From Bifidobacterium bohemicum DSM 22767 (lineage in GTDB: Bacteria > Actinomycetota > Actinomycetes > Actinomycetales > Bifidobacteriaceae): a DNA stretch of 64,000 nt. A program made the translations under genes and the position numbers. The DNA is taken from positions 372,001 to 436,000 of the forward strand of contig NZ_JGYP01000001.1 in assembly GCF_000741525.1 (NCBI RefSeq), written 5' to 3'. The notes under the pieces are model-generated. The model ran no database searches and was not told where the DNA came from. It saw only the letters and a list, made by a program, of their open reading frames with translations. Positions 18,731 through 58,285 of this stretch are shown one piece after another; within the stretch, counting starts at the first letter, position 1; each line of letters begins with the position of its first letter.

Positions 18731-19376
18731 CAGCCTTTCGTTTCAAAAACGTGGAAAAACTATTCAACCATGAACCATGCACACACGCGAAAGAAACATC
18801 CCAATATGAGACACCTGCCACACACCGCCGCCCGTGAGGGCGTGGCCCGACCTCTACCGGCACATGGTACCCGCAATCACCGAGGGGGGGGGGACAACGC
18901 CAATGGCTTCCCATACAGGACCAGTTAAACCCATCAATATACGAAATGCGGACGAACCTTTGCTTATCATGCACGTCGGAGCCGACTGCCGAGCCAAAGG
19001 CATAATCCGGGCCAAAGTCGCCACCGCGCTCAAACTCCTATTTCTTCGGTTCATTATTCCGCCCCCCTCATTTTCCCGGCAATCGAAAGTCATAAACGAA
19101 AAAGTTATCTGCCGCACAAAAAACGTTCTGTCGGCTGATACCGGCAAGGAGATCCAAACGATACCGCCACGCAGAACAGGCGGCCTGAACGGAAGTCACA
19201 ACTTCATCGTTTTGGCTTACAAACCTGATGGCTTGCCAAACAAGGAAATAGGCATGCCGTAGGAAATCGCCGGAAACCAAGCACAGCAACGCCGCAATTG
19301 CGCCGAAGCCAAAACCGCGGAGCCGACAATGCGCCAAGAGACGGCTCGGACACCCAATCAAGCCCCGACATCGGGA
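18731..19376. other. Gene-poor region with a G10 tract
   Basis: About 645 bases without a recognisable gene. A 142-residue frame (18834-19262, plus strand) has no family motif or good start. Ten consecutive G at 18884-18893 are the longest plus-strand G-run seen in the window. No tRNA or clear hairpin was found. Confidence 0.5.
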
Positions 19377-46460: not shown

Positions 46461-46473
46461 GATTCCCCCCCCC

Positions 46474-49516: not shown

Positions 49517-52500
49517 TCAGGCCTTGGCGACCTTCACTGTAAGATCTTTGGCTTCGGCGTCGGAGTTGACATCGATCGACGTGGCCAAGGTCTCATGGGC
49601 GATCAGATCACGGAACCGCTCGACCTTCGGCACGTCGACCGCAGGGACGTTAAGCGTCAGGGCGATACGGTCGGCGATGTCAAGCCCGGCGTCCTTACGC
49701 GTGTCCTGCACGGCACGGATGGCGTCACGGGCATAGCCTTCGGCCTCCAGTGCGTCCGTCATCTCGGTGTCGAGAATCACGAAGCCACCGGAGGGCAATG
49801 CTGCGGAGACCACGCTCGCGCGGCCCTCGTCACCGTCCTTCTCGACCTGGTTGACCAAGGTGTATTCACCCTGTACAAGAGCGACTTCGCCGCTCGGCGT
49901 CGAAACGACGGGAGCCCCGGTCTCCGCATCGACGCGCCAGTCACCGGACTTGGAGGCCTTAATGGCGGACTGCACCTGTTTGCCGAGCCTCGGTCCCGCC
50001 GCACGAGCATTGACCTTAAGGTCATGAATGATCTTCAGACCGTGATTGGATGCGTCTGCGAGCGTGGAGAATTCGACGTTCTTCACATTGAGTTCGGTTT
50101 TGAGGATACCGCTGTACGCCTCGACGCCCTCAGGGTCATCGACCAGCACCGTGAGATTGGCCAACGGCTGACGCACTCGAATCTGCGAGGCCTTGCGCAA
50201 CGACAGGACGCCGGAGACGACCTCGCGCACCTGCTCCATGGCGACGACGAGCGCCGGATCATCGACCAGCACACGCCCCAGTTCGGTGGCCTCGCCCTTG
50301 TCGAGCGCATCCGGCGAAAGCGCATCCGCCCCGGCGCCACACGAGCCTTGGCCGGCCTCGGTGACGAACGGCCACTGCGCCAAATGCACCGACTCCCCCC
50401 CGGTCAGACCACGCCACACGGACTCGGCCTCCATCGGGGCGAGCGGCGCCATGACGCGCATCAGCACCTCGAGCACGGTGTAAAGTGTGTCGAAAGCGCG
50501 CCTATCCTCGTTCCAGAAACGCTCGCGGTTGTTGCGGATGTACCAGTTGGTGAGCATGTCGATGAAGTCCTGCACCTGGGCGCAGGCATCGGAGATGGCG
50601 AAGGTGTCGAGCGCGTGCTCCACCGACTCCACCAGACGGCGCGTGCGAGCCAAGAGATACCGGTCCATGTTCGGCAGGCCGGACACCTCGTCGGGATGCA
50701 ACTGATGGGCATCGTATCCCTTCCCGCCGTTCGCGGCGTTGGCATAGAGCGTGAAGAAGTAATAGGAGCTCCACACCGGCAGCAGCACCTGACGCACCGT
50801 GTCGCGAATGCCGTCGGCGGTGACGATGAGGTTGCCGCCGCGCAGGATCGGCGAGGACATGAGGAACCAGCGCATCGCGTCGGAGCCATAGTCGTTGAAC
50901 ACGCCATTGACGTCCGGGTAATTGCGCAGGTGCTTACTCATCTTCTGGCCGTCGTCGCCAAGCACGATGCCGTGGCAGATGACGTTCTTGAACGCCGGCC
51001 TGTCGAACAGCGCCGTGGCCATCACATGCAGCAAGTAGAACCAGCCGCGGGTCTGGCCGATGTACTCGACCACATAGTCCGCCGGGAAATGCTGCTCGAA
51101 GTACTCCTTGTTCTCGAAGGGATAATGGAACTGGGCGAACGGCATGGAACCGGATTCGAACCAGCAGTCAAGCACATCGGTGATACGGTGCATATGTGAT
51201 CGACCGGTCGGGTCGTCAGGGTTGACCCGTGTGAGGTTGTCGATATAAGGCCGGTGCATGTTGACTTTGCCCTCACCATCGCGCGGATAGTCACCGAAGT
51301 CGGCCTTGAGATCCTCCAGCGAACCATACACGTCCACACGCGGGTACTTCGGATCGTCGGAGACCCACACCGGAATCGGCGAGCCCCAGAAGCGGTTGCG
51401 CGAAATCGACCAGTCACGGGCGTTCTTGAGCCACTTGCCGAACTGGCCGTCCTTGACGTTGTCGGGAATCCAATTGATCAACTGGTTATTGGCCAGCAGA
51501 CGATCCTTGATCTTGGTCACGGAGACGAACCACGAGGAGACCGGCTTGTAGATCAGCAGGGTGCCGCAACGCCAGCAGTGCGGATAGGAGTGAACGTAGC
51601 TCTTCTCCTGGAAAAGCAGGGCGCGACGGTCTTCGGGCACCTGGGCCAAAGGACCGTCACCATTGCGTAGGTTGCGCAAAATGGGAAGGTTCGCGTCGAA
51701 CACGTACATGCCTTCATAATCGGGGCACGCGGAGGTGAAGCTGCATCCCTCGTCGAGCACGTCGACGGAGTTGACCCCGGCGGCGGTGAGCGTGTTCATA
51801 TCGTCTTCACCATATGGAGCCTGATGGACCAGGCCAGTGCCTTCGACGGTGTCGACATAATCCGCGGCCATGATCTGGTACGCGTTGGGCCCGGGCACAT
51901 GACCCTCGGACTCGGCCTGATCACCCGCGAAGTACGGAAAGACCGGCCAGTAGCGGCGGCCGACCAGATCGCTGCCTTTGAGCTCTCGCACCACCTCGTA
52001 GTTCTCGCCGAGTTCCTTGGCGTACGAGCCCACCAGCGGCTTGCCCAGATAGAACTTCTTGCCCGCGAACTTGCCTTCGGTCGGTTTTACCTCAACGTAG
52101 TCGATGTCCTGACCCACCACGATCAGGAAGTTGGTGGGCGTGGTCCACGGGGTTGTCGTCCAGAAGACGGCGTAGGCATCGTCCTCGTCGCGCATCTTGA
52201 CGGCCACGGAGACGGTCGTGTCCTGCCGATCCTGATACACGTCGGCATCCATGCGCAACTCGTGCGCGGAAAGCGGGGTGCGGTCCTTGGGGCAGTACGG
52301 CAGCACGCGGTAGCCCTTGTAGGCCAAGCCCTTGTCGTAGAGGGTCTTGAACGCCCACATCACCGACTCCATGTAGCTGGTGTCGAGCGTCTTGTAGCCA
52401 TGCTCGAAATCGACCCAACGGGCCTGGCGGTGAACGTAGTCCTTCCACTCGTTGGTGTATTTAAGCACGGAGGCGCGGCAGGCGGCGTTGAACTTTTCGA

Positions 52501-52903
52501 TGCCCATCTGCTCGATCTGGTCGACCGACTCGATGCCCAGCTCTTTCTGCGCCTCAAGTTCGGCGGGCAGGCCGTGGGTGTCCCAGCCGAAGACGCGATT
52601 GACCCTGCGGCCCTTCATGGTCTGATAGCGAGGAATGACATCCTTGGCGTAACCGGTCAAAAGGTGGCCGTAGTGCGGCAGGCCGTTGGCGAACGGCGGC
52701 CCGTCGAAGAAGACGAACTCATTGTCGCTGTGGTCCCCCGACGGGTTGCGATCGATGGACTTTTCGAAGGTGTCGTCCTTGTCCCAGTAATCCAGTACCG
52801 CTTCCTCCATCTTCGGGAAGCTCGGATTCGGTGCGACGCTCGAACCGACCGCGCCTACCGCGGCCTTGGGATAAACATGATTGGCATTGGTGGTTTCGTT
52901 CAC
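49517..52903 (-). CDS. ileS: Isoleucyl-tRNA synthetase, long (IleS2-like) form
   Basis: About 1128 residues, class I synthetase. The HIGH motif is GLPHYGHLLTGYAKDVIPRY near residue 75 and KMSKS is DDGQKMSKHLRNYPDV near residue 650. WDTHGLPAELEAQKELGI and the editing domain YWPVFPYFAGDQ, GLVHQAPYGEDD follow. The length and C-terminal part fit the eukaryote-like type, which in bifidobacteria is linked to natural mupirocin resistance; the link is family knowledge, not read here. The GTG at 52903 has GAGGAG upstream; the frame upstream of it is T-box leader. A T-box precedes the gene and a 25-bp hairpin follows it. Confidence 0.97.
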   Translation of the reverse strand: MNETTNANHVYPKAAVGAVGSSVAPNPSFPKMEEAVLDYWDKDDTFEKSIDRNPSGDHSDNEFVFFDGPPFANGLPHYGHLLTGYAKDVIPRYQTMKGRRVNRVFGWDTHGLPAELEAQKELGIESVDQIEQMGIEKFNAACRASVLKYTNEWKDYVHRQARWVDFEHGYKTLDTSYMESVMWAFKTLYDKGLAYKGYRVLPYCPKDRTPLSAHELRMDADVYQDRQDTTVSVAVKMRDEDDAYAVFWTTTPWTTPTNFLIVVGQDIDYVEVKPTEGKFAGKKFYLGKPLVGSYAKELGENYEVVRELKGSDLVGRRYWPVFPYFAGDQAESEGHVPGPNAYQIMAADYVDTVEGTGLVHQAPYGEDDMNTLTAAGVNSVDVLDEGCSFTSACPDYEGMYVFDANLPILRNLRNGDGPLAQVPEDRRALLFQEKSYVHSYPHCWRCGTLLIYKPVSSWFVSVTKIKDRLLANNQLINWIPDNVKDGQFGKWLKNARDWSISRNRFWGSPIPVWVSDDPKYPRVDVYGSLEDLKADFGDYPRDGEGKVNMHRPYIDNLTRVNPDDPTGRSHMHRITDVLDCWFESGSMPFAQFHYPFENKEYFEQHFPADYVVEYIGQTRGWFYLLHVMATALFDRPAFKNVICHGIVLGDDGQKMSKHLRNYPDVNGVFNDYGSDAMRWFLMSSPILRGGNLIVTADGIRDTVRQVLLPVWSSYYFFTLYANAANGGKGYDAHQLHPDEVSGLPNMDRYLLARTRRLVESVEHALDTFAISDACAQVQDFIDMLTNWYIRNNRERFWNEDRRAFDTLYTVLEVLMRVMAPLAPMEAESVWRGLTGGESVHLAQWPFVTEAGQGSCGAGADALSPDALDKGEATELGRVLVDDPALVVAMEQVREVVSGVLSLRKASQIRVRQPLANLTVLVDDPEGVEAYSGILKTELNVKNVEFSTLADASNHGLKIIHDLKVNARAAGPRLGKQVQSAIKASKSGDWRVDAETGAPVVSTPSGEVALVQGEYTLVNQVEKDGDEGRASVVSAALPSGGFVILDTEMTDALEAEGYARDAIRAVQDTRKDAGLDIADRIALTLNVPAVDVPKVERFRDLIAHETLATSIDVNSDAEAKDLTVKVAKA

Positions 52904-52910
52904 CGCTACT

Positions 52911-53165
52911 CTCCTCGCTCGCAGGTTCATATCAACTACCTGCGAGGACGATGGATGCCATGCGACGTACTGCTTCCGTCCGCACACCACCACCGCGGTA
53001 CCACCCCGCTTGCCGCGTCAACGCACCTCGGCGCAGCCACTTGAAGTCGAGCTGTCTCGGGCTCTCCCGTCGGTTCTAATAAGTCACGAAACAAGCCACG
53101 CCCGCAACCGTTCTTCCGAAAGCTCCCCGCCGATAACGGATCAGCGCTTGTACTGATAGATGCTA
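52911..53165 (-). ncRNA. T-box riboswitch of ileS, probably acting on translation
   Basis: The minus strand carries GGTGGTACCGCGG (53005-52993), the T-box proper, whose TGGT would pair with the tRNA-Ile 3' end. Further upstream CGCTGATCC contains ATC (53141-53139), a possible isoleucine specifier in a short stem. Just before the start, CTCGCAGGT/ACCTGCGAG (52946-52938, 52926-52918) form a perfect 9-bp hairpin, and TCCTCG upstream can also pair with the ribosome binding site CGAGGA. There is no U-run terminator. This fits the actinobacterial ileS T-boxes that expose the ribosome binding site when uncharged tRNA binds. Confidence 0.85.
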
Positions 53166-53364
53166 GCACACCAGTCGGATAGCGGCCACGAACCGTTTCA
53201 CGCTTTGGAATCCATGGCTGCAGCCGTTCGCTATGAACGGACAGGCATACGCGCGTAGACACCCACACTGTGACCCAGAATCTTTCGGAAAACGCATCGA
53301 TCCAAGGCGGACACGGACAATGAATCGTCTGACGACGATAACCGCAGCCTCCCCAATCCACCTC

Positions 53365-53484
53365 ACTTCGTGCCTCTAGCCGGTCATAAATGCCTCTAAC
53401 CGCTCACTCCTGCCCTTTACCGTTAATTATTTGTCGACAAAATATACGTTTGGAGGCACTATTGACCGGTTAGAGGCACGAAGT
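53365..53484. repeat. Symmetric four-copy motif array around an AT-rich core
   Basis: The motif (G)TGCCTCTAACCG occurs four times: plus strand at 53370-53382 and 53390-53402, minus strand at 53479-53467 and 53459-53447. On each side the spacing is exactly 20 bp. The outer 22 bases (53365-53386 and 53463-53484) form an inverted repeat with one mismatch. The 44-bp core is AT-rich and holds the palindrome TTTGTCGACAAA (53430-53441). No gene lies in 53166-53580. It resembles a cooperative operator or a protein-assembly site; identity unknown. Confidence 0.85.
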
Positions 53485-53580
53485 TGGGGAAACCACACGA
53501 TCATTGGGTGACACAGGAGGGCGAATGGATCTTTTGCCCGTTCGCATCAAGTCCTAAGCGAAAAGAAAAACGGGACATCC

Positions 53581-55741
53581 TCATCGCAGGGCGTGTCGCC
53601 GACGGCAAGCGCCAACTACGAGCGCAACTACGCCGGTAAAGAGGGCAGGAAGCAGGATGCGATGCCGCCATTCCTTTGGAGCCTCACCGCCTGTCATGGG
53701 CAACGAGGCGACCACGGGCATGGTGGTATCGAACTTCACTGTGGACGAGACGTTGGGCTCTCCGCTGCCCATCGACGTCGGTTCTTCGGCGGCCGGGGCG
53801 TCCTTTGCCTGCATCTGCGAGTCACCTTTAAGCAGTACTCCATCAGGTATCGGCAACGTGAACGTGCCATCGTTGGAACCTGAGGCCGGACAGGTTGCGC
53901 CGACGATGTTGCCGGTGCCGGAATTTCAGGTCGGCGTTGTGGAAACAGGCGACGAACCGGTCGGCCAGGTCACGGTCACCGAAAACCTGGTTTCCTCGAC
54001 ACGATTGGGCTGCTTGGACGTATCGCCGGAACTGAAGACGGCAGCAGAGACCGTACGGGTCCGCTTGTTGAAGGTCGCTCCTTCAATTGACGGAGCGACC
54101 AGATCAGTCCGTCTGCCCGCCGAGAACGCGTAATCCGAATTGCCGGCCAAGGTCGTCATCAGCCGCGCGCGGAACACATATGGCATGCCCTGACCGACAT
54201 CGTCGGCATCGGACAACGCGGATATCGGAAACATGGCCGACCAGTTACAGGCGGTCGAAGAGCATGAGGTCGTATCCAACGTTACGTCATTAGCCGCGGC
54301 GGGCGTGCCGTCGCTTGGATTCGTCGAGTCAGGGGTGCCCTTGGGCATCAGCGCGACTTCGATCTTGTCGCCGGATTGCACCGCCCGGATACCGCCACCT
54401 TGCGGAACCGTACCGGAAACCTTCAACTTATCAATTTCTCCGCCGTTCATCCACGGGAATACCAAATCATTGGAGACGATGGGCGACGGAACCCATAGCG
54501 CATATAGCGTCACATCGTCGGTTGGCGTGTACGAGCTGCCCAACGCGTAATCAGGAGAAGTTACGTTGGCTTTACTGCTCCACCCAGCCAAGCGATAGCC
54601 GGAACGAGTGAAACCGGAACCAGAAGCCAAGGTGACACCCGGATGGTCGGGCCATCCGCCTCTCATATCAGCCGTCGACCCTGTTCCTCCATTGGCGTTG
54701 AATGAGACAGTATACGGACGGCCATGCCAAGCCATTTTTGAAGGTGATGGAATGCCGCCATCAAAGGGCTCTCCAGTCCACATACCATCATCCCTGTACC
54801 AGTGCATGCCAGGCCACGCACTGGTAACATCATCGCGAAAGGATGCCGCTGGCAAAGTCTGATTGGCACCGATGCGGATGAAACGGATGCCCGGAGAATC
54901 AGAAAACATCGCATCCTTGGTACGGATTCGAGAAAAATCCCACTTCGACATATCCCTCGAAGATAGAGACCCCAAGTATTCGAACATGTACCGCAGATTT
55001 TGTGCATTCGATTGGCCAGACTGACCCAAATCCCATTTATCCAGACCTGTAATTGAAGTAAGTAGATGATTATCGGCAAACATGCTCTCAAAATCGGACA
55101 CCCGTGAAATGTCGAGCTTGCCTAAATCGGCGGACCGCAGATTCGAGGCGAACCGGTTACCGGTGTCCAAATCATATCCCTCAAATAAGCGGTTCGCCAA
55201 TATCGCAGATACATGTCCGGAAACGACTATCCGAGTTATCGTCCGATTACCATACCAAACGATGCTTCTTTGCGTACCATAGTCCGGTATTGTGCCACTT
55301 TCCGACTCAAGAACGCAATCGTCGCCATCGTCGCTAAGATGAATATTGTGAAGTAACGTTCCACCCGTGCCGGACCATGGCGTATGAGCGGGAACCGTAC
55401 CGCATGTAACGCCTTGCGGCGAAACCACCGTTTTTGTTTGTGGCGAATTAGTTTGAGAACCTACCTGCGCCGAATTGCCCGAGGCCGGGAATCAAGCCGT
55501 TTAGCCCCCCCCCCGATTGAATTTCTATCAGTCGAAGACGCAGGACCAGAATCAGACAGAGCGGAGGCAGTGGATTCGGAGGTTAAAGAAGACTGTGCAA
55601 AGGTCGAGGAATCCCCCCCCCGGATGCAGATTGTGAAACGTGGGGGGGGGCACTGGAACGTTCAGCCGCAAACGCCGGCTGGGTAGTCATCGCGAACAAG
55701 ACCGCCGCTACGGCAACCGGCCATCGCCTTTCGAGCTGCAC
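53581..55741 (-). pseudogene. BspA-like LPxTG cell-surface protein, broken in several places
   Basis: Pieces in order on the minus strand: a signal peptide from GTG 55741 (RRWPVAVAAVLFAMTTQPAF), an S/T-rich linker, and a DUF285/BspA leucine-rich region (LANRLFEGYDLDTGN, ITGLDKWDLGQSG, MSKWDFSRI). An InlB/Flg_new repeat follows (VSFNANGGTGSTADMRGGW, YALW), then a beta-rich region, and an LPMTGG sortase anchor with hydrophobic tail and RRRHALR. The longest open part is 53926-55428. Lesions: a G9 tract at 55621-55613 (minus strand) where ten G would keep frame; one base missing near 55487; and an in-frame TGA at 53928-53926 about 115 codons before the end. A strong GGAGGG fits ATG 55754, in another frame. 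Confidence 0.8.
55505..55650. repeat. Three G/C homopolymer tracts in the surface-protein 5' region
   Basis: Plus-strand C10 at 55505-55514, C9 at 55613-55621 and G9 at 55642-55650 lie within 146 bases, between the signal peptide and the first domain. Tracts of this size slip easily in replication and can switch frames. Confidence 0.85.
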
Positions 55742-55754
55742 CGTGTATGCCCAT

Positions 55755-56041
55755 CCGAAACCCTCCTATACACCGCTCAAACACCAACACATCCGACACA
55801 ACCGATGACGTCGTCAGCGACCGCCAAGCAATTACGTATCGCACACCTAAGTCAAATATAGACTGTCTCGGCCACAAATCAGACGCCTGACGCCATCAAC
55901 CCGACCTCGCCGCCCGACATACCTAAGCCCCCCCCCACGATAACAAATCATCACTGGTGGTTGTCGCTCCATCACGTCATTGGTAGCGTCTAACACAGGC
56001 CACCGGGTGTGGAAATTCGCGCTATACGGCGAACCGACATC
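55755..56041. other. Spacer between surface-protein gene and recQ, with a C9 tract
   Basis: No recognisable gene. Nine C at 55928-55936. The start signal of the surface gene, AGGAGGG, is at its left end. Confidence 0.6.
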
Positions 56042-58285
56042 TCACTGCGAACGAACCACGTCCATGAAACGCCGACCGTAGAGACGCAACTTGTTTTCAC
56101 CTACGCCATTGACCGCGAGGAACTGGGCATCGGTGACCGGCTTGATACGGGCCATGTCACGCAAGGTCTTGTCGGAGAAGACGATGTACGGGGGCTTGCC
56201 GATCTCGCTGGCGATGGTGCGGCGCAGCTCGCGGAATTTCTGGAAGAGGGCCTCATCCTCTTCAGTGGGTTCATAGTCTTCAAGTGCCGAGGAGCCGCCA
56301 GGACCGCCGGACGAACGGCGAACGCCACGGCCGGCGTTTGAAGCCCCCTCATCGTCGGGATCATAGGACCCAAGCGCAAGACCACGTGCAGGACCACGGG
56401 ACTCGACGGACCGATGGCGCTGAATACGCTTGAGCTCGTAGTGGAAGTCAGGACTGACCGTTTCCGCAGCCCGATCTCCGAAACGCACGACCGGCAGACG
56501 GCCCTCCGAAATGGACAGGTATCCGTCGGTCGCCATTTGGTTGAGCACATCGCGAATACGCGCGTCCGGCACCTCACTAAGCGCCGCATAACTGGGCACC
56601 TGGTCCAGTCGGCGGTTGATGAGGTCCTGAGCCTTCGAACCGCGCAAGACCGAAACGATCTTACCCATGCCGAAACTCTGGTTAAGGTCATGCACGCAAC
56701 GGCTCACGGCGCGAGCAACGTCGGTGACGTCGATGCTTTCGAACGTGCGCTCGCAGTTGGCACAGTTGCCGCATTTGCCCGCTTCGGGCCCACAGGAAGG
56801 CAGAACCGCCACAACCGTTGCCGCAGATGCCGGTCTATCACCGGTAACCCGCCCGGCCTGAAAGGGTGCGCCAGTCGGCCCGTTGACCCGATCGGCGCAT
56901 CCACCTGCAAACTCACTGGCAGGCTGTTCAACCTGTTGATCAACAAGTTGAACACTTGGTGCCACGACCGAACCAGCGCCGGCATTCGCCCGCATGTTCG
57001 CTCCATCGGAACGTGCAGAGCCGGACAGAGCCTCCGGCGCGGTCTCACCGGCAATCTTGATGCCGGTGGGGTCGGCAAAATAACGAGTCATATAGCGGTG
57101 CAAACATTCGGTGGTACGGCAATAGCCGATCATGGCGTTAAGCAGGCGTCGATGACTGGCACGGACGATTTCGCGTTCTTCGTAGCTCAGGCGCTCATTG
57201 TCCGAATCCATATCGAGCAGTCGGCGCCGGGTGACGATGTCCGACTCGTTCCACAGCAGGGTGCAACGGCTGGGCTCGCCGTCGCGACCCGCACGACCGG
57301 CCTCCTGATAATAGGCTTCGATGCTTTCAGGCATGTTGTGATGGATGACATAGCGCACATTGGACTTGTCGATGCCCATGCCGAAGGCGTTGGTGGCCAC
57401 GACCACCGGAACCTTGTCGGTCACGAAGTCACGTTGGGCCCGCTCACGGGCTTCGGAGGCCATACCACCGTGGTATGCCACAGCGGACAGCCCCTGATCG
57501 TTGAGCTCTTGCGCGAGCGCCTCCGTCTCCTTACGGGTGGCGCAGTAGACGATGCCGGACTCATCTCGATGGTTGGCCACATAATCGGCGATCCATGTGT
57601 TCTTGCTTTTCGTCGGCATGTTGATGATGTCGAAATACAGATTGGGACGGTCAAAACCGGTGACGGTGACCTTTGGATTTTTCAATCCCAATAGTCGCGC
57701 GATGTCCCTCCGCACCTTTTCGGTGGCAGTGGCGGTGAAAGCGGCCACGGTGGGCCGGCTTGGCAATGAGGCGATGAACTCACCGATGCCCAAATACGAC
57801 GAACGGAAATCCTGCCCCCACTGAGAAACGCAGTGCGCCTCATCGACGGTGATCAAAGAAATCGACATGCGTGACACGATGTCACGAAACCGTTCGGTTT
57901 CCAACCGTTCCGGTGCCACATAGAGCATCTTCACATCCCCACGTGCAGCCTGGGCAAGCACCATGGCCTGTTCATCGGAATCTTGCGTCGTGTTGATGAA
58001 GGCGGAAGGGATACCCACTTCGTTCAGCGCGTCGACCTGATCGCGCATCAGCGAAATCAAGGGTGAGACGACAATGGTCAGACCCGGCAGCATCGTGGCC
58101 GGCACCTGATAGCAAATCGACTTGCCCGCACCGGTCGGCATGACGCCCAACACATCTCGTCCGGCAAGGATCGCCTCGACAAGCCCCGACTGCCCGGCCC
58201 GGAATGAGTCATAGCCGAAATACCGCTTCAGGGCCGCGAGTGCACGACCACCGCCGCCGCTCCCATTCGTCGTCGCTTCACTCAT
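56042..58285 (-). CDS. recQ: ATP-dependent DNA helicase RecQ, with insert in the zinc-binding region
   Basis: The 747-residue helicase has Walker A VMPTGAGKSICYQVPA near residue 50, ITVDEAHCVSQWGQDFR (DEAH box), AFTATATEKVRRDI, and helicase C motifs FGMGIDKSNVRYVIHHNMPE and YYQEAGRAGRDGEPS. The zinc-binding cysteines are present: YCRTTECLHRYMTRYF and KCGNCANCE. Between them is an insert of about 80 low-complexity residues, where most RecQ have about 10-20. A winged helix and an HRDC domain (ELRRTIASEIGKPPYIVFSD) complete it. It unwinds DNA in recombinational repair. ATG start at 58285 with a weak ribosome binding site. Confidence 0.95.
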   Translation of the reverse strand: MSEATTNGSGGGGRALAALKRYFGYDSFRAGQSGLVEAILAGRDVLGVMPTGAGKSICYQVPATMLPGLTIVVSPLISLMRDQVDALNEVGIPSAFINTTQDSDEQAMVLAQAARGDVKMLYVAPERLETERFRDIVSRMSISLITVDEAHCVSQWGQDFRSSYLGIGEFIASLPSRPTVAAFTATATEKVRRDIARLLGLKNPKVTVTGFDRPNLYFDIINMPTKSKNTWIADYVANHRDESGIVYCATRKETEALAQELNDQGLSAVAYHGGMASEARERAQRDFVTDKVPVVVATNAFGMGIDKSNVRYVIHHNMPESIEAYYQEAGRAGRDGEPSRCTLLWNESDIVTRRRLLDMDSDNERLSYEEREIVRASHRRLLNAMIGYCRTTECLHRYMTRYFADPTGIKIAGETAPEALSGSARSDGANMRANAGAGSVVAPSVQLVDQQVEQPASEFAGGCADRVNGPTGAPFQAGRVTGDRPASAATVVAVLPSCGPEAGKCGNCANCERTFESIDVTDVARAVSRCVHDLNQSFGMGKIVSVLRGSKAQDLINRRLDQVPSYAALSEVPDARIRDVLNQMATDGYLSISEGRLPVVRFGDRAAETVSPDFHYELKRIQRHRSVESRGPARGLALGSYDPDDEGASNAGRGVRRSSGGPGGSSALEDYEPTEEDEALFQKFRELRRTIASEIGKPPYIVFSDKTLRDMARIKPVTDAQFLAVNGVGENKLRLYGRRFMDVVRSQ

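Follow-up and report, generated by a model that had tools for sequence, protein, structure and literature searches.

A probable recently decayed copy of an LPxTG-anchored DUF285/Flg_new surface-protein gene, from a probably phase-variable family, between recQ and ileS in a Bifidobacterium-like genome

The sequence studied was a 64-kb stretch of DNA (hereafter the window) from a Bifidobacterium-like genome assembled into 5 contigs totalling 2,052,470 bases, whose estimated completeness of 96.28% is similar to that of its relatives. Between recQ (56042–58285) and ileS (49517–52993), both intact by Pfam, the minus strand carries a decayed LPxTG surface-protein gene (53581–55754), which the frames and the comparison with relatives place in at least three reading frames. 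In sense order, a Shine-Dalgarno-like AGGAGG (55767–55762) lies 7 nt before an ATG (55754–55752), followed by a signal peptide region (55754–55661) with its hydrophobic core in a different frame from the ATG, a C9 tract (55650–55642) in frame between the signal peptide and the Ser-rich stretch after it, a G9 tract (55621–55613), a Ser/Thr-rich linker, a G10 tract (55514–55505), the site of a lost base at a C3 (55489–55487), the domain region, an in-frame TGA (53928–53926) and the anchor. The domain region holds a DUF285 match (BspA-like leucine-rich repeat region; 54898–55140, E 9.8e-8, 32.2 bits against a cut-off of 25) and a Flg_new match (Listeria-Bacteroides or InlB-type repeat; 54499–54714, E 2e-11), likewise above its Pfam cut-off, whilst the C-terminus is of the LPxTG class, with an LPMTG sortase motif, a hydrophobic stretch and a basic tail (53703–53581). 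The initial annotation had listed these parts, from signal peptide to sortase anchor, as lying in differing frames, and all of them were recovered as such. The genome of the window has five sortase matches over cut-off, and, among 10 tract-gene products searched, 4 gave LRR_5 (BspA type) matches, of which two exceeded the LRR_5 cut-off.

Another G9 tract (55936–55928, minus strand) lies in the spacer between recQ and the adhesin gene, 174 nt before the ATG and without a promoter match at the tract; the one sigma-70-like site in 53300–56100, against 1.9 expected, falls inside the gene. A search of 52900–56100 for RNA families found neither a T-box nor any other bacterial family at E ≤ 0.1, and two miRNA matches there scored far below their gathering thresholds and were taken as chance.

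Several lesions that relatives lack separate these parts, as in a pseudogene, although assembly error is a possible alternative. The GTG at 55741, previously taken as the start, is probably not one, as it sits 20 nt behind AGGAGG, which is too far, whilst the ATG sits only 7 nt behind; a signal peptide is joined to a start codon in relatives but not in the window copy, where two bases fewer are present near 55717/55716 than in all five aligned relatives. Across the G9, the frames of the signal peptide and of the linker differ by one missing base, as had been proposed. The further missing base that had been placed near 55487 was located at the C3, where Bifidobacterium sp. ESL0763 (treated here as the same genome as our relative G033) has C4, changing the frame from linker to domain; alignment with relatives ruled out the G10 itself as the site of this shift. 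The TGA is likewise present, and replaces a conserved Cys codon (TGC in five copies, TGT in one) in all six copies that matched when the loci of eight relatives were scanned for the flanking protein pattern. As regards selenocysteine insertion at the TGA, no tRNA-Sec in this genome exceeded the gathering score (best match 44 bits against 47); the same loose search gave matches in every one of 14 control genomes, five of them with a match above the cut-off. All three lesions named by the initial annotation are thus real features of this sequence, but it missed the C9, the G10, the intergenic G9 and the two-base lesion of the signal peptide. Other copies in the same genome (L040 and L041) are also broken.

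We then considered every combination of the three coding tracts (C9, G9 and G10), each at its own length and one base either side. None of these 27 states joins either start, ATG or GTG 55741, to the domain, so no tract length gives a full product; the product is always 30 aa from the ATG and at most 97 aa from the GTG. This is because a TAA (55503–55501) and a TGA (55494–55492) lie in the frame of the domain just behind the G10, between that tract and the domain. The window copy, as sequenced, is therefore not a working on/off switch: it is locked off, not merely switched off, and tract slippage alone cannot turn it on. The G9 had been read as a typical on/off arrangement, of which the one-base shortfall stands, but the tract common to orthologues is the G10, which is in phase here.

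Relatives of the domain, at 54–63% identity, were found in G033, G024, G115 (two copies), G120 and G121. The G10 of the window aligns in these with G6, G11, G7, an interrupted run and G9, giving a pure run in five of the six aligned copies including the window; one genome per species was compared, and tract lengths were thus compared across species only. At three loci (L149, L150 and L152) the tract alone separates the frame of signal peptide and linker from the long domain frame with its anchor, whilst the frame is open throughout in the G033 and G120 copies. The G024 copy (L046) has a G9 elsewhere in the linker, in frame, and is open from the signal peptide through the domains to an LPLTG anchor. 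The sequences of relatives show that the reading frame in this family is set by a homopolymer of G or C lying between the signal peptide and the domain, whilst in the window copy the tracts alone do not decide. In two DUF285 genes elsewhere in the genome of the window (L042 and L082), the signal peptide is followed by an in-frame G10; L042 lacks LPxTG but finishes with a hydrophobic stretch, and L082 is split further on. Similar flanks of the C-tract (A before; GC or GCG/GCA after) occur in L096, L112, L098, L113 and L124 of G024, L132 of G004 and L131 of G014, which belong to different subfamilies and species.

We consider the gene, with reasonable though incomplete confidence, to belong to a probably phase-variable family of LPxTG-anchored DUF285/Flg_new surface proteins and to have decayed recently. 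By analogy with the pili of Bifidobacterium breve, replication slippage would probably change the tract length and generate ON and OFF cells; in ON cells the protein would be secreted and then anchored to the wall by a sortase, and its BspA-like repeats may there bind a surface, as the domains suggest. One tract of the window copy lacks a base, and the lesions outside the tracts (signal peptide, 55489–55487 and TGA) keep the gene off at any tract length. The earlier suggestion of a phase-variable adhesin that has begun to decay hence fits the family, in which the tract varies in length between relatives and alone sets ON or OFF in several, but does not extend to the window copy as a working switch.

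The phase of tract genes across eight genomes (G000, G004, G014, G024, G033, G115, G120 and G121) bears on this reading and on two of its rivals. Among 40 scored genes, six were ON, 31 were one base short and three one base long. These derive from 35 initial rows, of which five were dropped for a non-credible ‘signal peptide’ (L086, L125, L128, L130 and a second reading of L102; four read one short, one read one long), leaving six ON, 23 one short and one one long, to which L149, L150, L152, L153, L155, L157, L040 and the G9 of the window were added by eye as one short, and L154 and L041 as one long. Common descent is not a full explanation of this bias, since 28 of the 31 one-short genes are spread over 9 clusters at 60% identity. 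The bias exceeds the prediction of simple random switching, which counts against the switch reading, and may reflect contraction-biased slippage, with which it is consistent on the model of the B. breve pili. Under-calling of runs would also give an excess of one-short genes, and assembly or base-calling errors that shorten long G/C runs by one in an intact gene are an unlikely alternative: 31 of 34 OFF genes are short by exactly one base, the direction of under-calling, and Penno 2022 (PMC9187656) warns, in the passages available, that database tract lengths differ from measured ones. Such errors leave the TGA, the two missing signal-peptide bases and the short C3 unexplained, however, in a genome of ordinary completeness where the adjoining recQ and ileS are intact; one OFF copy has only G7, and six tract genes with 9–12 bases are ON. 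Very improbable, in our view, is programmed recoding, whereby the family’s proteins are produced through a shift at the tract, either a −1 ribosomal frameshift or slippage during transcription, and one base short is the normal state. The phase shared by 31 of the 34 OFF genes across tracts of 7 to 11 bases, of both G and C, and its spread over the nine clusters would suit it, yet the six ON genes require no shift, three OFF genes are in the other phase, and the productive change in B. breve goes the opposite way (available passages of PMC9187656). The broader idea that these bifidobacteria keep a large adhesin repertoire one base short of ON by design, through recoding at the tract or through a slippage bias that silences nearly all copies while one is expressed, is improbable. 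The example behind its one-expressed-copy form is G024, where the signal peptide is followed by a G/C tract in 19 scored surface-protein genes (among loci L046, L095–L100 and L112–L124); 18 of these are OFF in the same phase and one is ON.

A plain pseudogene, in which the tracts of the window copy grew after gene death and never formed a switch, is a rather unlikely alternative that draws on the abundance of tracts in this genome. An order-3 Markov model of the window predicts 0.33 G/C runs of at least 9 per 64 kb (no more than 2 in any of 60 simulations), against six observed, four of them within 432 nt; two further long tracts (18884–18893 and 46465–46473) lie in stretches of the window without strong ORFs. 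Run lengths in 382,080 bases of the genome are bimodal (302 runs of 5, 35 of 6, one of 7, three of 8, 28 of 9, 44 of 10 and two of 11), although these bases were picked around runs of at least 9, a selection that leaves only the counts for lengths up to 8 unaffected. The genome contains 74 runs of at least 9, against 25, 7, 6, 2, 2, 1 and 1 in the seven relatives searched alongside, and with 46 runs of at least 10 it ranks second among 112 genomes of the genus (top 49), exceeding nearly all relatives. With ORFs called by our own codon model, 66 of the 74 long tracts lie outside ORFs, compared with 92 of 302 runs of exactly 5, and in this genome a long tract on its own is therefore only a weak indication of a switch; the C9 and G9 moreover lack an equivalent at the corresponding position in the aligned relatives. 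Against tract growth after death, five relatives have a G-run where the window has its G10, four of these runs being pure and 6–11 bases long, and constraint after the TGA resembles constraint before it.

The dN/dS values behind that last point were, for the window against G033, 0.24 in the domain and 0.22 after the TGA and, against G024, 0.22 and 0.29, compared with 0.19 for the intact pair of G033 and G024 adhesin genes and with 0.13 and 0.11 for ileS. As dS in the adhesin comparisons was 0.84–1.95, near or above 1 in most, these ratios are rough and cannot date the lesions. The decay nonetheless looks recent, because constraint still seems to act on the coding sequence before and after the TGA, with no apparent sign of long relaxed evolution.

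The type of switch is already known in related bacteria, and the window copy looks like a recently dead copy of it. In B. breve UCC2003, a G-tract between the signal peptide and the LPxTG protein similarly sets the frame of the sortase-pilus genes bbr_0113 and bbr_1889, with OFF as the default and slippage measured: the G10 of bbr_1889 gave ~6.5% G9 and 0.1% additions, whilst additions dominate at bbr_0113 (Penno 2022, PMC9187656, available passages). That system is, as described, a pilin operon that carries a sortase of its own, with a productive change of −1+3n and one tract per gene, unlike the lone DUF285/Flg_new protein of the window with its several tracts and lesions outside them. The available text of PMC12104195 repeats the pilus tract in B. 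dentium. Homopolymer tracts of at least 8 are likewise abundant in the related genus Gardnerella, where many occur at surface proteins that carry LPXTG and InlB B-repeats, and length variation is shown for one gene, but the species are vaginal and the available passages name no DUF285 family (PMC11287997). Honeybee bifidobacteria share Flg_new and LPxTG surface proteins, which there carry RCC1 repeats, not DUF285, and vary by duplication; ‘homopolymer’ and ‘frameshift’ are absent from the main text (PMC4449606). In the open-licence literature, which mostly excludes subscription papers, we found no work describing DUF285 proteins with such tracts in bifidobacteria. On sequence evidence, the family described here would take the G-tract switch of bifidobacteria beyond pili to lone DUF285 adhesins of several species, and it yields a testable regularity, that OFF genes are nearly always one base short. 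The window copy shows what is left once the gene under a slippage switch is lost, and that the tract itself can persist.

In G033 and G024, recQ and ileS adjoin without an adhesin gene, and the gene was therefore either inserted in the window or lost elsewhere. ileS was not found in the stretch fetched at recQ in five genomes (G028, G002, G014, G004 and G027), nor recQ in the stretches fetched at ileS in six. The recQ-side flank matches the recQ–ileS spacer of G024 (E 5.6e-7). As regards a duplication from the ileS leader, the two window flanks aligned with each other at 19.3 bits, not above shuffles (up to 24.7 bits). The flanks on both sides of the gene (including window 55916–55980) align with segments of the empty G024 spacer that overlap each other, which may point to a small duplication when the gene was inserted. 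An imperfect palindromic element lies 3′ of the gene (window 53380–53500), with a similar one at C5:245811 and another near C2:481940, ~400 nt downstream of the paralogue L040.
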